Shown: positions 3,553 to 21,058 of the stretch, piece by piece | Position numbering within the stretch: position 1 is the stretch's first letter | How the letters are laid out: the number at the start of each line of letters is the position of its first letter | Assembly (NCBI GenBank): GCA_937918935.1 | Contig: CAKZSI010000022.1 | Span: 1-64,000, forward strand | Source of the DNA: an uncultured Chloroflexales bacterium | GTDB lineage: Bacteria; Chloroflexota; Chloroflexia; Chloroflexales; Chloroflexaceae | Direction: 5' to 3' | DNA: 64,000 bases | Translations under genes and position numbers: made by a program | Notes under the pieces: generated by a model | Told to the model about the DNA's origin: nothing | What the model saw: the letters and a program-made list of their open reading frames with translations, nothing else | Databases searched by the model: none

Positions 3553-4212
3553 TCAACCCCTTAGAGGGAAAAGCTTTTGCTCTAACTGAACTGCTGAAGC
3601 GGCGATTTTGAGCGCAGTAAACAGGTAAGGCAGCGAAACTGGCAGGCGCAGCTTCCAGAAATACTGGAACGGTGTGGCGCCGTAAGCGCGCATCAGGTCG
3701 AGGCTCTGGGGCGAAGCCGCGCGCAGCCCGCGCAGCATGCCGATGGTTACGGGAAAGAACGTCAGATAGGCGGCGACCACCATCCTGGCCAGCCAGGGCG
3801 GCGCACCCATACGCCCAAGGCCAACCACCACCATCGGCGCGATAGCGAGGATCGGCACAGTCTGCGAGCCGATGACGTAGGGCATCAGGCCCCGTTCCAG
3901 CATCGGCAGGCGCATAAAGAGCACCGCCAGCGCAAAGCCCAGCAAGCCGCCGATGAAAAAGCCCCCCAGAGCCACGCGAAAGGTGGCCCAGCCGTTGGCC
4001 AGCATCTGCACGATTAACAGTGGCCCTGCCCCCCCGCGGGTAGGGGTAAACATCGTCTCGACAATCGAGCCGAGCGAGGGCAAACGTTGCTCGGAGAGGC
4101 CAAAAACCAGGCGGGCGCCTTCCCAGAGCAGCAGCAATGCGGCGATCACGCCAATGATTGACAGAGCGCGTCGGGCCAGATCTCCGGATGCGCCCTGAGC
4201 AGAGTATGCCAA
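3553..4212 (-). pseudogene. ABC permease (SsuC/ThiX type), C-terminally truncated
   Basis: Inner-membrane permease with several hydrophobic helices and the EAA loop (GATPFQYFWKLRLPVSLPYLFTALKIAA). Homology stops just after that loop, at about 3590; the last residues AVQLEQKLFPLRG do not resemble the family, and about 70-80 residues carrying the final helices are missing. I place the start at the TTG at 4212, because GGAGG lies exactly 6 nt upstream; the open frame reaches TTG 4290 but that stretch contains the structured leader. It is the first gene after the promoter at 4375-4403. With the second permease also cut, the transporter is probably dead. Confidence 0.7.
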
Positions 4213-4273
4213 ATCAGGCCTCCATCTGAGGCGATACGGAAAACTTGTACAACGATGCCGGAAAGAAAGGTCG

Positions 4274-4334
4274 TGGACAACACTGTCCAACGGCCAACAA
4301 GAGCGTGTTGGCGGAGGGCTGCTAACGTAGCAGC
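4274..4334 (-). other. Three consecutive hairpins in the 5' leader of the ABC/hydantoinase operon
   Basis: Between the promoter and the TTG start, the transcript contains three perfect stem-loops in 61 nt: 4334-4318 (7-bp stem, 3-nt loop CGT), 4312-4293 (7-bp stem GCCAACA, 6-nt loop) and 4289-4274 (6-bp stem TGGACA, 4-nt loop). Such tandem structure in the leader of a small-molecule transporter suggests regulation by an RNA or by a bound protein. It fits none of the riboswitch consensus patterns I know; the loop ACGT is close to, but not, the ACGR loops of guanidine-II. Confidence 0.5.
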
Positions 4335-4374
4335 ATTACTCCACGGAGGGGAATCAGGACTCTGGATTGTAAAA

Positions 4375-4403
4375 AGTGTAGCGCGGAGCGAGAAGTTTGT
4401 CAA
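4375..4403 (-). promoter_or_regulatory. Sigma-70-type promoter of the ABC/hydantoinase operon
   Basis: On the minus strand a consensus TTGACA (4403-4398) is separated by exactly 17 nt from TACACT (4380-4375). The predicted start near 4368 gives a leader of about 155 nt before the permease TTG. Confidence 0.7.
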
Positions 4404-4507
4404 TGCGGATGGCGCGGCAGGCGATGGGGCGGGGGCGGCGGACGGGCCGTCTGTCGCTACTGGCACCTGGGCGTGACGTGCGTGTCTGGCGGCCTGCCGG
4501 GCTGTCG

Positions 4508-4894
4508 CTACGCCCCAACACTGCGGGCAAAGATGCGCTCCAGGGTTGCGCGTGGGTCGGTGCAGAGACCAGTGTGGACCGGAGAGGGCTGGATGATGGT
4601 GCTACGCGGGGCGGTGAGCCAGCGGAAGCGCTCGTAGTGGGGCAGAGCGCCGATCGGCCCGGCGGCGGCGCCGCCGGCGCAGATGACCGGAATGTGCGCC
4701 AGTTGCGCCTCCAGCAGTTCCAGGTCGAGCGTGGGATCCAGGGCGCGCAGGCGGCCCGGGTCGAGGCGCAGGCGCGCCTCGAGGAAGCCGTGTTGCCGGC
4801 AGAGGAGCACCACGCCGGCGTTGACGGATTCGCCGCGCTCGATCCGCGGTACCACGCGCATCAGGGCGTATTCAAAGACGCTGGTCGCGGGCAT
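4508..4894 (-). CDS. DUF3037 family protein
   Basis: Small protein of 128 residues beginning MPATSVFEYALMRVVPRIERGE, the typical opening of DUF3037, with NAGVVLLC following. No catalytic motif is visible and the function is unknown. Its start lies 23 nt inside the upstream HipA-like gene, so the two are very likely translationally coupled; a HipA-like kinase next to DUF3037 is a recurrent pairing in bacterial genomes. It ends this minus-strand group. A partner or antitoxin-like role for the kinase is inference only. Confidence 0.75.
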   Translation of the reverse strand: MPATSVFEYALMRVVPRIERGESVNAGVVLLCRQHGFLEARLRLDPGRLRALDPTLDLELLEAQLAHIPVICAGGAAAGPIGALPHYERFRWLTAPRSTIIQPSPVHTGLCTDPRATLERIFARSVGA

Positions 4895-5654
4895 GGATCG
4901 CCTCCTCAACAAACAACCGCGGCGCCGCCGCCCGCGACAGCAGGTATTCGGCGTAGGCCGCGCGGTGCTCTTCGATACTCGCGAACGGGCCGTCTCCTAC
5001 CAGCCAGGACTCGGGCACCGCCGCCACCAGACGTTCCACCAGGGCGGGGGTAATCTGGGGGGCCAGCGCGGCATCGGCGGCGCGCAGATCACCCGCCGCG
5101 GCGAGCAGCACGTGGTTCTTGATCGCCGCAAAGCGACCCTTCGCCCGGGTACGCCAGTCTTCCCAGGTATGGTGAACAATCAACGTCGCGCCGTGGTCAA
5201 TCAGGTAGAGTTGCCGGTGCCAGAGCAGCAGGTTCGTGTTGAGCGCCGTCCGGTCCACATTGGTAACAAAAGCGTCGAACCAGACAATGCGCGCCGCCAG
5301 GTCAGGGGTGATGCTGGCGGTGTTAAGCGCGTCGAAGGCCAGGGCGCCGGGCAGAAAATCCACCGCCAGGTTCAGCCCGCCGCTGGCCCTGACGAGATCC
5401 TGGATCTCGCCATCGGGTTCATTGTGCCCCAGGGTCGGATCCAGGTGCGCCAGGGCGATCTCGGGCACCGGCAGTCCGAGGGCGCGCCCTAACTCACCAG
5501 CAAGCAATTCGGCGATCAGCGCCTTCGGTCCCTGGCCAGCGCCACGAAACTTAAGAACGTACAACCCATCATCGTCCGCCTCGACCAGGGCGGGCAACGA
5601 GCCGCCCTCGCGCAGCGGCGTGACATAACGGGTTGCAATGATGGTGCGGAGCAT
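4872..5654 (-). CDS. HipA-like kinase-fold protein
   Basis: 260-residue protein related to the HipA kinase fold. An N-terminal strand and Lys (GLYVLKFRGAGQGPKALIAELLAGEL) resembles the ATP-binding lobe, and TNVDRTALNTNLLLW followed by LYLIDHGATL resembles the HipA catalytic loop and Mg-binding Asp. It lacks the N-terminal HipA subdomain, so it is a short stand-alone form. A good ribosome site (GAGGTG, 8 nt) precedes the ATG. It starts 15 nt after the uracil-DNA glycosylase stop and overlaps the DUF3037 gene, so all three are probably co-transcribed. Substrate and physiological role are unknown; no HipB-like helix-turn-helix antitoxin is encoded beside it. Confidence 0.75.
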   Translation of the reverse strand: MLRTIIATRYVTPLREGGSLPALVEADDDGLYVLKFRGAGQGPKALIAELLAGELGRALGLPVPEIALAHLDPTLGHNEPDGEIQDLVRASGGLNLAVDFLPGALAFDALNTASITPDLAARIVWFDAFVTNVDRTALNTNLLLWHRQLYLIDHGATLIVHHTWEDWRTRAKGRFAAIKNHVLLAAAGDLRAADAALAPQITPALVERLVAAVPESWLVGDGPFASIEEHRAAYAEYLLSRAAAPRLFVEEAIHARDQRL

Positions 5655-15759: not shown

Positions 15760-16530
15760 CTAGGGGCTGCCAGCGACCACCGACGCCTCAGCGTAATCAT
15801 GGTGTGGGACCAGGCCCCATTCCGTCAGGGGAAAGTAGATCAGCCAGGCCTTGCCGATCACGCGATCCAGTGGCAATGGCCCCCATTCACGTGAATCACT
15901 GGAATTGGCCCGGTTGTCGCCCATCACGAACACGTGGCCAGGAGGCACTTCGATCGGTCCGTCCTGGCAGGCGTAGCCGGTAACACAGAAGGTTTTGATG
16001 TCACCCAGGTACGGTTGATCAAGCGCGGCGCCGTTCACAAACACCTGCCCGTCGCGGATCTCGATCGTGTCCCCTGGCAAGCCAATGACACGTTTGATAT
16101 AATCCTTCGACACATCGCGCGGATACTCAAACACAACGATGTCACCGCGCCGGGGTTGGTGGAAGGGATAGATGACCCGCTGTTCGAGCGGCTCCTGGCC
16201 GGGCAAAAGCCGCAGGGGTGCATTCAAATCGAAGTGGAAGTAGACCAGTTTGTTGACCAGAATGTATTGCCCCGATTGCAGCGTCGGCTCCATACTGGAG
16301 CCCTCGATTTTGAAATTCTGGACGATGCCGCGAACGATGAAAAAGACCAGTAAAATAAATAGTGCCGTCTCAACCAGTTCACGTACCACACTGCGCACCC
16401 GCACCGGTCCTTCCAGGGTTGTTGTCCGGTCGAGGGTGAGAGGTCCCATTCTATCGTGGACAGGTGTATCGAACACGGGCGGTTGGGCCGGTTCCATACC
16501 TGGCCCGCGCCGCTGGGGGAACTGATCCAT
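15760..16530 (-). CDS. lepB: Signal peptidase I
   Basis: 256-residue membrane serine protease that removes signal peptides. One N-terminal transmembrane helix (ELVETALFILLVFFIVRGIV, residues about 51-70) anchors a periplasmic-side catalytic domain. Catalytic Ser79 lies in GSSMEPTL and Lys146 in KDYIKRVIGLPGD; box E reads FVMGDNRANSSDSREWG. A Cys pair in FCVTGYAC within the inserted loop may form a disulfide. The N-terminal 40 residues are variable and cytoplasmic. Divergent from the radical-SAM-like gene across a 418-nt gap. Confidence 0.93.
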   Translation of the reverse strand: MDQFPQRRGPGMEPAQPPVFDTPVHDRMGPLTLDRTTTLEGPVRVRSVVRELVETALFILLVFFIVRGIVQNFKIEGSSMEPTLQSGQYILVNKLVYFHFDLNAPLRLLPGQEPLEQRVIYPFHQPRRGDIVVFEYPRDVSKDYIKRVIGLPGDTIEIRDGQVFVNGAALDQPYLGDIKTFCVTGYACQDGPIEVPPGHVFVMGDNRANSSDSREWGPLPLDRVIGKAWLIYFPLTEWGLVPHHDYAEASVVAGSP

Positions 16531-16894: not shown

Positions 16895-16948
16895 GACGTC
16901 GTCTGTGGTAAGAACGTGTAAACCACTACCGCGAGAGCAGGAGCTTAC

Positions 16949-17947
16949 ATGGCGACCGAGCGGGCTGATCTGATCGTCGCGAGCAACGATGGAAGCATTG
17001 TCTGTCTGGCCTGCCAGTGGCGTTGCGCGCTACGTCCCGGCGATGTGGGGCGCTGTCAGGTGCGCCTGGGCGCCGAAGAGGGCATCAGTCTGCTCAGTTA
17101 CGGTCTGATCAGTTCTGCAACTATTGGGCCGATCGAGGACTACCGGCTCTGGCACTTTCTTCCTGACACGCTGGCGCTGGCGATTGGGGGGTGGGGCTAC
17201 GCCACGGTTAGCGATCAGAGCCGTGGCCCATACGGCGCGTTGCCCGACGACCCGGCCCGGCGGCGCAAACTCGATGCCGAGCGCGCCGCCTCGTTCGCGC
17301 TGGAACGCCTCTGTCGCGGCGTTATCTGGGCCTACGGCGAACCCGCCGTCAATCACGAGTATGTCCGCTCGTTGCTTCAACTCAGCCGCGCCGCCAGTCG
17401 CTACACGGCGCTCGTCACCACCGGCGCGATGACCGTTGAGGCCCTCGATCAACTTGGTCCGTACCTTGATGGCATCAGTCTCGATCTGCGCGGTTTCAGC
17501 GATGGCAGCTATGCGCGCCTGGGCGGCCTGCCTGCCTGGCGCGAGGTGCTGGCCATCGCCGAGCGGGCGTTGCGCCAGTGGCGGGTGCACATTGAGGTCA
17601 CAACGCGCATCCATCACGGCGTCAATGATGATCCGGCCGAGGTGCGCGCCCTGGTGACCTGGATCAAAGAGACGCTGGGCGACCACGCGCCCTGGCACGT
17701 GCTCCCGGGCGACGCCGGCAGTGAAACGGCGGCTTCGACCATGCGCGCCCGCAGGATTGGCCACGAGGTCGGCCTGCACTTCATCTACGGCGCCGAGCCA
17801 AATCAGCCGACCCGCTGCCCGATGTGCCATCAGGTGCTGATAACCCGTGTCAATGGCGTCACCAGCCTGGTCGGTCTCAATGGTTCCATTTGCACAAACT
17901 GTGGCTACAATGCGAAGCTGCACCTGTCGATTTTCAAGCAGCGGTGA
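16949..17947 (+). CDS. Radical-SAM-like protein (AmmeMemoRadiSam type) lacking the Fe-S cluster motif
   Basis: 332 residues aligning by eye with the radical SAM member of the AmmeMemoRadiSam group. The N-terminal Cys motif is kept: CLACQWRC (residues 19-26), then GDVGRCQVR (Cys36), then SYGLISSATIGPIEDYRLWHFLPDTLALAIG. At residues 80-91, exactly where relatives have the CxxxCxxC that binds the 4Fe-4S cluster, this protein reads GGWGYATVSDQS with no Cys. The following barrel appears intact (WAYGEPAVNHEY, DGISLDLRGFSDGSYARLGG, HIEVTTRIHHGVNDD). The C-terminus carries two CxxC pairs (290/293 and 315/318), a zinc-ribbon-like module. AGGAG precedes the ATG by 5 nt. It is therefore probably a non-radical pseudoenzyme or an RNA- or protein-binding scaffold; function unknown. 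Confidence 0.7.
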   Translation: MATERADLIVASNDGSIVCLACQWRCALRPGDVGRCQVRLGAEEGISLLSYGLISSATIGPIEDYRLWHFLPDTLALAIGGWGYATVSDQSRGPYGALPDDPARRRKLDAERAASFALERLCRGVIWAYGEPAVNHEYVRSLLQLSRAASRYTALVTTGAMTVEALDQLGPYLDGISLDLRGFSDGSYARLGGLPAWREVLAIAERALRQWRVHIEVTTRIHHGVNDDPAEVRALVTWIKETLGDHAPWHVLPGDAGSETAASTMRARRIGHEVGLHFIYGAEPNQPTRCPMCHQVLITRVNGVTSLVGLNGSICTNCGYNAKLHLSIFKQR

Positions 17948-18133: not shown

Positions 18134-21058
18134 CTATGGGCGCATGGTGAACGGCATGTGGACCCGCCGCACCTCCAGGCGCGAGTCGACGCGGAAGCTC
18201 AGGGTGCGCTCCTCCGAACGATTGCCCGCCCGGTCAACCGCCACGTAGCGCACGCGATGCTGGCCGTTGGGCAGGCTGCCGAGGCTTGCCATCGGGCCGG
18301 CGCGCTCCTCCCAGGCGCCGTCGTTCACCGACACCAGCAGACTCGCGACACCGCTACCGCCCAGGTCATCGGCGGCAAGTGTCAGCCCGTCAAACTGCTG
18401 AAAGGTGCTGCCCAGACGCTCGGTGACCGTGCTGCCCAGACCGGCCAGGCCTTCGACGGGCGGGCCAAACTGCGCCTGGCCCGGCCCGCGCACGGCATAG
18501 CCCGCCGTGCGCCCGCCGCCCCACTCCAGCGAACGGAACGCCAGTACGTGCCGTCCGGCTCGCAGGTTCACCGTTCGCTCCACCGCGGTCTCATCTTGCT
18601 GACCCGTCGCGCTGACCACCAGCTCTCCGTCGATCCACAGCCAGGCGTTATCGTCGCTGCTCAGTTGGAAGGTGTAGTCGCCTTCCACCGGCGCGACGAA
18701 GATGCGCGTCTGTTCCAGGACCAGACGCTCTGCCGCCTCTACGCCGATTCCTGACGCAGCCCCCAGGTCGTCGTTGGGAAGGCCCTGCCAGACGAAGGCG
18801 CCCAGCAAAGCGCCTCGGGCGAGGGCCGAACCGTCATCCGTGCGGGCCAGAAAATTGGCCGGCGTTCCACCCTCACGGTACACGTGCGCCAGCGGGCGCA
18901 GCAGGTGATCGTAGGCCACCGGCGCGGGGGGTTGCCGCTCAGGGGTTACGGTCAGAGGCGTAACGGCCACGTCGCGAGCGAAATAGACGACGTATTCGTT
19001 GATCAGCCCGGCGCGCAACCGGAAGTTCCCCGGGGTGCGCAGGCGCAGGTAGCCCACTACCTCGCGGGTTTCGCCCGGCGCGAGCCGGCCGTTGATGCCC
19101 CAGCGCCAGGGGTAGCCGCCGCTGTCGCCCGCGCACCGCGGTTGCCGCTCCGTCTCGATGGGGCCAAGCGTCAGGCGGATGCGCCCGAACTCTTTCGGAT
19201 AGGTGGGGTAGGCCTGTCCCGGGGTCCCCAGGAAGCACTCGCCCTCATCGTAGACGTAGCCCTCGTTCGGGTTGAAACGGCCATCGGCGGCGCGCTCCGC
19301 TTCGGGGGCCTGGCTCTCAACCGGGGCCGCGCCGCTGTTGCGGATGGTGAAGGTGACCTTCAGCAGTTCACCCGCGGCGAGGCTCACCCGGTCGTAGTGC
19401 ACGTTGAGGAGATCGACCCGCGCGGCGGCGGGATCCTCTTTGATCCAGCGGATGGCGTCGAAATAGACTACCCGCTGGCGGATGAGCGGCTCTCCGGTCA
19501 GATCACTTAGCTCGACATAACCCTGACGGCCCGCGGCGAACTGGTACGTGCCCAGTGAGACCCACTCCTCCGCGGTGTCCTGGTTGATGGTCACTTCGTA
19601 GGTCTGGTCGGCGGCGGCGATGCGATAGGTGGCGCGGGCGGTCGCCTGGAGCAGGCTGCACCCCCGCGGAACGTAGGCCAGCACGTGGTAGCGCCCGGCC
19701 TCGGGGAGGTTCGGGCGCCAGGTCCCCCGGTTGGCGCTCTCGGCTGGAGTGTCAGTGCCAAAGGTGTAGGTCGTATTGCCGTCGTAGCCGCAGGGCCACT
19801 GGTACCAGGTTGCGTTGCTGCGCTCGAAGCCGCTCTCGCGGTCGTCCACCGTCAGGTCGCCGTTGTCCCAGGCGGCGCCGCTCAGTCGGTCGCGCACACG
19901 CTGGCGGATGGCGGGCAACAGCCCGTCCAGCCGGTCGCCGGGACAGGTCGTATGGCCCGGGGTGACGGTGCGGTGGCCGGCGATATGGTTGATCACCGCG
20001 CCGGCGTTGAAGGGACTGCAGTAACGAGAAATGGCGCACCCGTAGTAGTAGGAGCGACCGAGGGGATCAACGCCCTTCTGTTCGGCCTTCCAGGCCAGCA
20101 GGTTCACCAGGCTCTCCAGGGTGGCGTTGGAGGGGGCCACGGTGCTGTAGGTGCCAATCAGCGCCACGCCCATCGAGCCATAGTTGCCGGTGTCGTGAAA
20201 GCCCACCGCGTCGTCGCCGCCAGCTCGCCCTTCGTAGATTACGCCATTGGGATCAATCAGGTAGTTGTAGCCGATGTCGCCCCAGCCGCGGGTGAAAGTA
20301 TGGAACGACCAGATCGCCCGCACCCGGTCGGCCCAGTTCTGCTGGCTGCCGGAGAGACTGTTGGCGTCGGCGGTGTGATGCACGATCATGTGGCGCACGG
20401 GGTAGTAGGCCGGTGGCACCCGGCTGCTCTGCCCATCCGGGTTGCCCCAACCGGTGCGGCTCACCACTGGCGGGCGGCTCGCCTGGGCGGTGGTGGCCTC
20501 ACCCGGCGCTTCCGGCGATGGCTTGGAGGGTCCGAAGCGGGCGTCAACGGTGTTGACCTCGATCCGTCGCAGGTCGGGCAGGGCGCCGTCGGGCGCGGGG
20601 CCGAAGCGCGCGCGAACCTGCCAGAAGCGCGCCTCGAACCCAGCGGCGATGATCTGGCTCCAGTGTACCTGCTCACCATCCTCGGGTTGCCAGAGATCTT
20701 CGTCTTCACCCGTGGCACCCCAGGGCGACCACTGTTGCCCGTCGGCGGAAACGCGCGTTTCCAGTTCCAGGCCGGCCTCGGGTGGTACGGCGCCCTCCCA
20801 GCGCAGCAGCAGGTGGGTGAAGGGTCGCGCCGTGGCGGTTGGGGGTGAAACGTACCCGTAGCCTGCGTCTTCCCCCGCAAGCGGCCCGACAGAGGGCGTA
20901 TCGGAGGGACCGGGCAGGAGCAACACGGCCCGCTCAGGGCGTCCGGCTTCGGTGTTAGAAAGGGGATTGGCGGCCACATGCCCAGAGACCAGCGCCAGCA
21001 AGCTGAGCAGCAGGAGCGCAAAAGTGAGCGTGGCGGAGCGGGAAGAACGGGGCGGCAT
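18134..21058 (-). CDS. Secreted multidomain N-acetylmuramoyl-L-alanine amidase (PGRP/Amidase_2)
   Basis: 974-residue exported cell-wall enzyme. A signal peptide is visible (residues about 8-31, AFALLLL-type core ending GHVAANP). After a carbohydrate- or adhesion-like region (about 60-190), the peptidoglycan-recognition/amidase domain spans about 200-390: RTGWGNP, HMIVHHTADAN (zinc His), GWGDIGYNYLIDPNGVIYEGR, NYGSMGVALIGTYS, and HIAGHRTVTPGHTTCPGD with the second His and Cys ligand, so it should be catalytic. Then follow a golvesin-like beta domain (about 400-545), an Ig-like region (about 550-720), a PA14-like domain (about 745-890: DDNAWLWIDGELVV, GRHVLAFRSLEWGGG) and a C-terminal Ig-like repeat (AVDRAGNRSEERTLSFRVD). 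GGAGG lies 6 nt before the ATG. Monocistronic. Confidence 0.85.
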   Translation of the reverse strand: MPPRSSRSATLTFALLLLSLLALVSGHVAANPLSNTEAGRPERAVLLLPGPSDTPSVGPLAGEDAGYGYVSPPTATARPFTHLLLRWEGAVPPEAGLELETRVSADGQQWSPWGATGEDEDLWQPEDGEQVHWSQIIAAGFEARFWQVRARFGPAPDGALPDLRRIEVNTVDARFGPSKPSPEAPGEATTAQASRPPVVSRTGWGNPDGQSSRVPPAYYPVRHMIVHHTADANSLSGSQQNWADRVRAIWSFHTFTRGWGDIGYNYLIDPNGVIYEGRAGGDDAVGFHDTGNYGSMGVALIGTYSTVAPSNATLESLVNLLAWKAEQKGVDPLGRSYYYGCAISRYCSPFNAGAVINHIAGHRTVTPGHTTCPGDRLDGLLPAIRQRVRDRLSGAAWDNGDLTVDDRESGFERSNATWYQWPCGYDGNTTYTFGTDTPAESANRGTWRPNLPEAGRYHVLAYVPRGCSLLQATARATYRIAAADQTYEVTINQDTAEEWVSLGTYQFAAGRQGYVELSDLTGEPLIRQRVVYFDAIRWIKEDPAAARVDLLNVHYDRVSLAAGELLKVTFTIRNSGAAPVESQAPEAERAADGRFNPNEGYVYDEGECFLGTPGQAYPTYPKEFGRIRLTLGPIETERQPRCAGDSGGYPWRWGINGRLAPGETREVVGYLRLRTPGNFRLRAGLINEYVVYFARDVAVTPLTVTPERQPPAPVAYDHLLRPLAHVYREGGTPANFLARTDDGSALARGALLGAFVWQGLPNDDLGAASGIGVEAAERLVLEQTRIFVAPVEGDYTFQLSSDDNAWLWIDGELVVSATGQQDETAVERTVNLRAGRHVLAFRSLEWGGGRTAGYAVRGPGQAQFGPPVEGLAGLGSTVTERLGSTFQQFDGLTLAADDLGGSGVASLLVSVNDGAWEERAGPMASLGSLPNGQHRVRYVAVDRAGNRSEERTLSFRVDSRLEVRRVHMPFTMRP

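Follow-up and report, generated by a model that had tools for sequence, protein, structure and literature searches.

We report a protein from an uncultured Chloroflexales bacterium that descends from the radical-SAM protein of the AmmeMemoRadiSam system (TIGR04337) and that is very probably a pseudo-radical-SAM protein, found throughout a bacterial class. Its gene lies in the window, by which we mean the whole 64,000-nucleotide stretch of DNA analyzed (contig CAKZSI010000022.1, positions 1 to 64,000). The alignments show that the cluster- and SAM-binding side of the protein was stripped while the remaining barrel and the zinc-type ends stayed. The product would most likely be a zinc-stabilized binding or scaffold protein built from a radical-SAM barrel, and we regard a binding or scaffold role as such as evenly poised. 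The features of the locus are collected in Table 1.

The window protein scores 127.2 bits against TIGR04337 (AmmeMemoRadiSam radical SAM enzyme), below the curated cut-off of 220, and 33.5 bits against PF04055 (Radical_SAM), above the cut-off of 29.5. The second result calls for caution in annotation, since the Pfam model here clears its threshold although the protein is very probably not a radical-SAM enzyme. Common descent with the TIGR04337 enzyme extends over residues 12-321 and takes in both Cys quartets and the barrel. The first-pass annotation had proposed that the CxxxCxxC cluster motif is lost and its position occupied by GWGYATVSDQS, and alignment with canonical paralogues agrees: residues 80-91 read GGWGYATVSDQS, with GWGYATVSDQS at 81-91, where canonical paralogues have GTxGCNLGCRFCQNW and relatives CNxxCxxCQNW. 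CxxxCxxC occurs 0 times over the full length of the window protein, so the motif has not moved elsewhere in the chain. The reading frame is intact, as claimed (332 codons, 0 frameshifts, 0 stops), and the N-terminal CxxCxxxC...C signature and the C-terminal pair of CxxC motifs are both present. The description of four other Cys sites was right as to their retention and wrong as to their number, eight conserved Cys being arranged in two quartets. A further stretch thought to be retained, GPIEDYRLWHFLP, proved to be altered: relatives carry DPIEKKPLxHFxPG, and KKP is gone.

Table 1. Features of the cluster-less gene and its surroundings in the window
Feature	Position	Strand	Basis
Cluster-less radical-SAM-like protein, 332 aa	16949..17947	+	TIGR04337 127 bits, PF04055 33.5 bits
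Shine-Dalgarno-like AGGAG, 5 nt 5' of ATG	16939..16943	+	Direct reading
N-terminal Cys quartet C19-x2-C22-x3-C26-x9-C36, likely zinc site	17003..17056	+	Invariant in 33 orthologues and all canonical relatives
Ex-cluster loop, residues 80-94, GGWGYATVSDQSRGP replacing GxxGCNxxCxxCQNW	17186..17230	+	Alignments
RGVIWAYGEP, residues 123-132, aligning with WTYNEP (GGE-type); R123 newly invariant	17315..17344	+	Alignment
R181 replacing the invariant Lys of DxK	17489..17491	+	Alignment with canonical relatives
H214-x-E216, invariant, retained	17588..17596	+	Alignments
PGDA, residues 253-256, replacing canonical RFxP	17705..17716	+	Alignment
C-terminal Cys quartet C290/C293/C315/C318, zinc-ribbon-like	17816..17902	+	Invariant in 33 orthologues
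Signal peptidase I, divergent neighbor, class-wide synteny marker	15760..16530	-	Peptidase_S26, 171 bits

Compared with its closest cluster-bearing relatives, the cluster-less clade has lost the three cluster Cys, QNW, the D and KKP of DPIEKKP, the Lys of DxK and RFxP; CxxxCxxC, DPIEKKP, the DxK Lys and RFxP are likewise what separates the window protein from the TIGR04337 enzyme. The clade retains the eight terminal Cys, H69, P72, both Gly of the ex-cluster loop, H214, E216, N226, D227 and W238, and gains R123 as a new invariant residue. Position 181 is Lys in all canonical relatives and R, N, Y or other residues in the cluster-less clade. We take this residue to be the SAM-carboxylate Lys of pyruvate formate-lyase activating enzyme (PFL-AE). 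With the cluster ligands absent from the sequence, no 5'-deoxyadenosyl radical would be formed. That the protein is still a radical-SAM enzyme, with a cluster coordinated by different Cys or delivered by a partner, is highly improbable: the barrel is retained and the PF04055 cut-off passed, but no barrel-internal Cys is invariant among the clade orthologues (C122 is common, not invariant), the eight invariant terminal Cys are ancestral, and the SAM-carboxylate Lys and RFxP have gone as well. Relocation of the cluster Cys within the barrel was rejected on the same ground, the only invariant Cys being the eight terminal ones.

The two Cys quartets could plausibly bind metal, putatively zinc, as the spacing of the Cys suggests; zinc-ribbon models give weak, sub-threshold matches to the window protein. 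Since the same eight Cys occur in the cluster-bearing relatives, metal binding would be ancestral and cannot by itself constitute a new function. The barrel, which the first-pass annotation had described as well formed, is predicted with confidence: the AlphaFold2 model computed from 43 orthologues is a radical-SAM barrel with a pLDDT of 93.5 and a pTM of 0.91. The top three Foldseek matches are PFL-AE entries (3c8f, E 1.6e-9), and VIA-align also places 3c8f best (Z 19.8, 216 residues, 2.7 A), followed by NifB, RlmN, QueE and viperin; a PDB sequence search with the window protein returned 0 matches. The likeness to PFL-AE (PDB 3c8f, 3cb8) lies in the barrel fold, whereas in that enzyme the cluster and the residues for SAM binding are present and the two terminal Cys quartets are not, and a common fold is no proof of function.

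A survey of Chloroflexota, suggested in the first-pass annotation, found cluster-less orthologues class-wide and in one clade. The window protein has matches in 36 of 41 related genomes, mostly draft MAGs, and in 35 of the 41 the match is a cluster-less orthologue (about 37-93% identity, no CxxxCxxC, N-terminal CxxCxxxC(9)C, two C-terminal CxxC), a few copies being split or truncated where a contig ends; just 11 of the 41 genomes hold an intact cluster-bearing paralogue. The gene is present in Chloroflexus islandicus, Candidatus Chloroploca, Candidatus Viridilinea, Candidatus Oscillochloris fontis, Roseiflexus MAGs and Herpetosiphon aurantiacus DSM 785. Across the whole class, 70 of 158 genomes have a match to the window protein, and three families beyond the order (f5, f6 and f8) carry cluster-less orthologues that are also motif-free. 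A 400-genome sample of the phylum places the cluster-less clade at 420-525 bits, the next best group at about 300-360, with the motif kept in every case read, and other canonical proteins at no more than about 257. Once the motif columns had been taken out of the profiles, sorting yielded 64 cluster-less ORFs, none with CxxxCxxC, and 48 canonical ORFs, all 48 with the motif; orthologues keeping the motif, which the first-pass annotation had weighed as a sign of local error, were not found. In a maximum-likelihood tree of 78 proteins, likewise computed without the motif columns and with no root inferred by the program, the 31 cluster-less rows all fall beyond one branch (support 100/100, recovered in every bootstrap tree). 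Because the cluster-less proteins form one clade and all relatives across that branch keep the cluster, the simplest reading is that the three cluster Cys were lost once, probably early in the ancestry of the Chloroflexia. One genome of family f6 (G087) has four homologues (L177, L184, L185, L186), of which one is cluster-less and the other three are canonical and belong to different subgroups.

Selection on the gene, estimated by the Nei-Gojobori method, is purifying. The dN/dS of the window protein is 0.065 and 0.085 against two congeners and 0.17 against a more distant one, and pairs from Herpetosiphon, Chloroflexus-like and Roseiflexus-like genomes give 0.017-0.063, so that the overall range (0.017-0.17) lies well below 1, with dS close to saturation in some pairs. 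The ex-cluster region is constrained too (0-0.21). A pseudogene or a local sequence error might be suspected in a draft assembly of 85 contigs, but the same state recurs in 64 ORFs from many genera, among them the named Chloroflexus islandicus and Herpetosiphon aurantiacus DSM 785, and the frame is open; the orthologues and dN/dS rule this explanation out, and we assign it a negligible probability. Selection for a non-radical role, as the first-pass annotation had it, is strongly supported by class-wide retention, the single clade, low dN/dS and the disappearance of several SAM-side residues along with the Cys; the roles it offered as examples, namely metal binding, scaffold or RNA binding, are candidates.

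A true radical-SAM paralogue was sought elsewhere in the genome of the window, and only one canonical copy, which is broken, was found (C30:117879-118475, corresponding to L001 1492-2109). Relative to a congener (G003), it has 444 bp missing, including the cluster motif, and a 1-base insertion near its start; it looks like a decaying gene, and misassembly is possible. Since this is the only canonical copy in that genome, the window protein cannot assist an intact one there. Three congeners (G002, G003, G004) have an intact canonical gene, and their genomes contain neither Memo nor AMMECR1.

The genomic context indicates what became of the ancestral partners. Among the closest cluster-bearing relatives, which by inference are mostly Dehalococcoidia-like, Memo and AMMECR1, either fused in a single ORF or as two, come next downstream in 21 of 24 loci. 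These relatives (for example L200 and L193) are the top-scoring canonical proteins and share a CQWxC start and WxGIL and HxEV stretches with the window protein, but in them the cluster motif and the complete Memo-AMMECR1 operon are preserved. In L200, a 439-aa ORF (3993-5309) directly after the canonical radical-SAM gene is a Memo-AMMECR1 fusion, confirmed by Pfam and NCBIfam. Within the cluster-less clade, all nine Herpetosiphonaceae (f3) genomes, and no other family, have AMMECR1 immediately downstream, and Memo holds this position only in G087; in families f1, f2, f4, f5 and f8 neither adjoins the gene. Unlike in the TIGR04337 system, no Memo or AMMECR1 adjoins the gene in the genome of the window, and both are absent from it genome-wide. 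The AmmeMemoRadiSam operon has thus eroded piecemeal while the cluster-less protein stayed.

This pattern bears on the proposal that the protein regulates AMMECR1/Memo chemistry or serves as its adaptor, recruiting the old target where AMMECR1 or Memo remain. The tight tandem with AMMECR1 in Herpetosiphonaceae (3 nt separate the stop of the cluster-less gene from the AMMECR1 ATG in G032) and that with Memo in G087 speak for it. The gene nevertheless persists in Chloroflexaceae, Roseiflexaceae-like and other families with no AMMECR1 and mostly no Memo, which means that such a role cannot be general, and we consider the proposal unlikely. Class-wide, the cluster-less gene shares a single neighbor, a divergent signal peptidase I gene, which adjoins it at 29 of 34 order-level loci and at three from families beyond the order; the arrangement supports orthology by position and may be mere synteny, carrying no functional meaning.

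Our main reading, which we hold to be very probable, is that of a pseudo-radical-SAM protein. In a single event in an early Chloroflexia ancestor, the radical-SAM subunit of an AmmeMemoRadiSam operon was deprived of its [4Fe-4S]/SAM half, after which purifying selection kept the non-radical protein while Memo and AMMECR1 were lost piecemeal. A lineage in which this subunit gave up first its chemistry and then its partners, and in which selection on it is still strong, shows that some part of it is of use with no radical chemistry. The retained half-barrel (H214/E216, N226/D227) and the zinc-ribbon ends might then recognize the ancestral target, a protein or RNA, and the protein would act on it as a scaffold or regulator instead of modifying it. 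A bolder reading, which we put forward tentatively as a possibility on the doubtful side, is that the subunit acquired a new function of its own, as a conserved non-radical regulator or an RNA- or protein-binding adaptor independent of the Memo/AMMECR1 system from which it came.

The pocket is partly kept (YGEP, HxE, ND), so the protein might conceivably still bind SAM or a different nucleotide, or catalyze a reaction that involves no radical. A new non-radical enzyme, in which the former SAM pocket binds another ligand and HxE/ND together with R123 form a new active site, would account for the invariance of H214, E216, N226 and D227 despite the losses on the SAM side, for the newly invariant R123 and for the constraint on the ex-cluster loop itself. 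We judge it somewhat unlikely, as the replacements vary by family (Y/T/L in the loop; R/N/Y at K181), which does not suggest one conserved site there, and the retained residues are common to radical enzymes as well.

Pseudo-radical-SAM proteins are already known as a kind, for instance pseudo_rSAM_GG (NCBIfam TIGR04150), a radical-SAM relative that resembles the present case by name and whose setting is GG-Bacteroidales; the TIGR04150 model has 0 matches in the whole genome of the window. A literature search of partial coverage found no description of a class-wide cluster-less case and no use of the term 'pseudo-rSAM', nor did it find a paper stating a function for the bacterial Memo-AMMECR1-radical-SAM system; the name AmmeMemoRadiSam appeared once in each of five papers. 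Memo and AMMECR1 are both widespread. PMC7159879 cites the Memo-AMMECR1 analysis of Burroughs et al. (2019), and in humans MEMO1 binds metal and has been tied to iron homeostasis (review PMC11918410). As the oxygen-sensitive cluster is absent, the window protein should be easier to purify and usable as bait for its target. Should that target turn out to be the old substrate, the protein would give access, through binding alone, to what the Memo-AMMECR1-radical-SAM system acts on.

Other neighbors of the cluster-less gene are confined to particular lineages. Gene order in Herpetosiphonaceae continues past AMMECR1 as lplA-gcvT-gcvH-gcvPA-gcvPB, and glycine riboswitch aptamers precede the lipoate-ligase-like gene (L083 9535-9714, in tandem; L191 8317-8408). 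A link to glycine cleavage in this family was set aside: a glycine riboswitch before lplA makes gcv a separate transcription unit, and the adjacency may be synteny only. Past the cluster-less gene of an f5 locus (L180 7840-13316), one strand encodes a Ser/Thr kinase with a PQQ-type beta-propeller, a PP2C phosphatase, and vWA and FHA proteins, and kinase- and phosphatase-like ORFs also follow the gene in f6 and f8; as a general link this operon was rejected, being absent from Chloroflexales. In the window, the cluster-less gene converges with a 974-aa ORF (18134-21058, minus strand) that is conserved in 8 of 34 loci and contains a stretch resembling, by eye, an N-acetylmuramoyl-L-alanine amidase/peptidoglycan-recognition domain.
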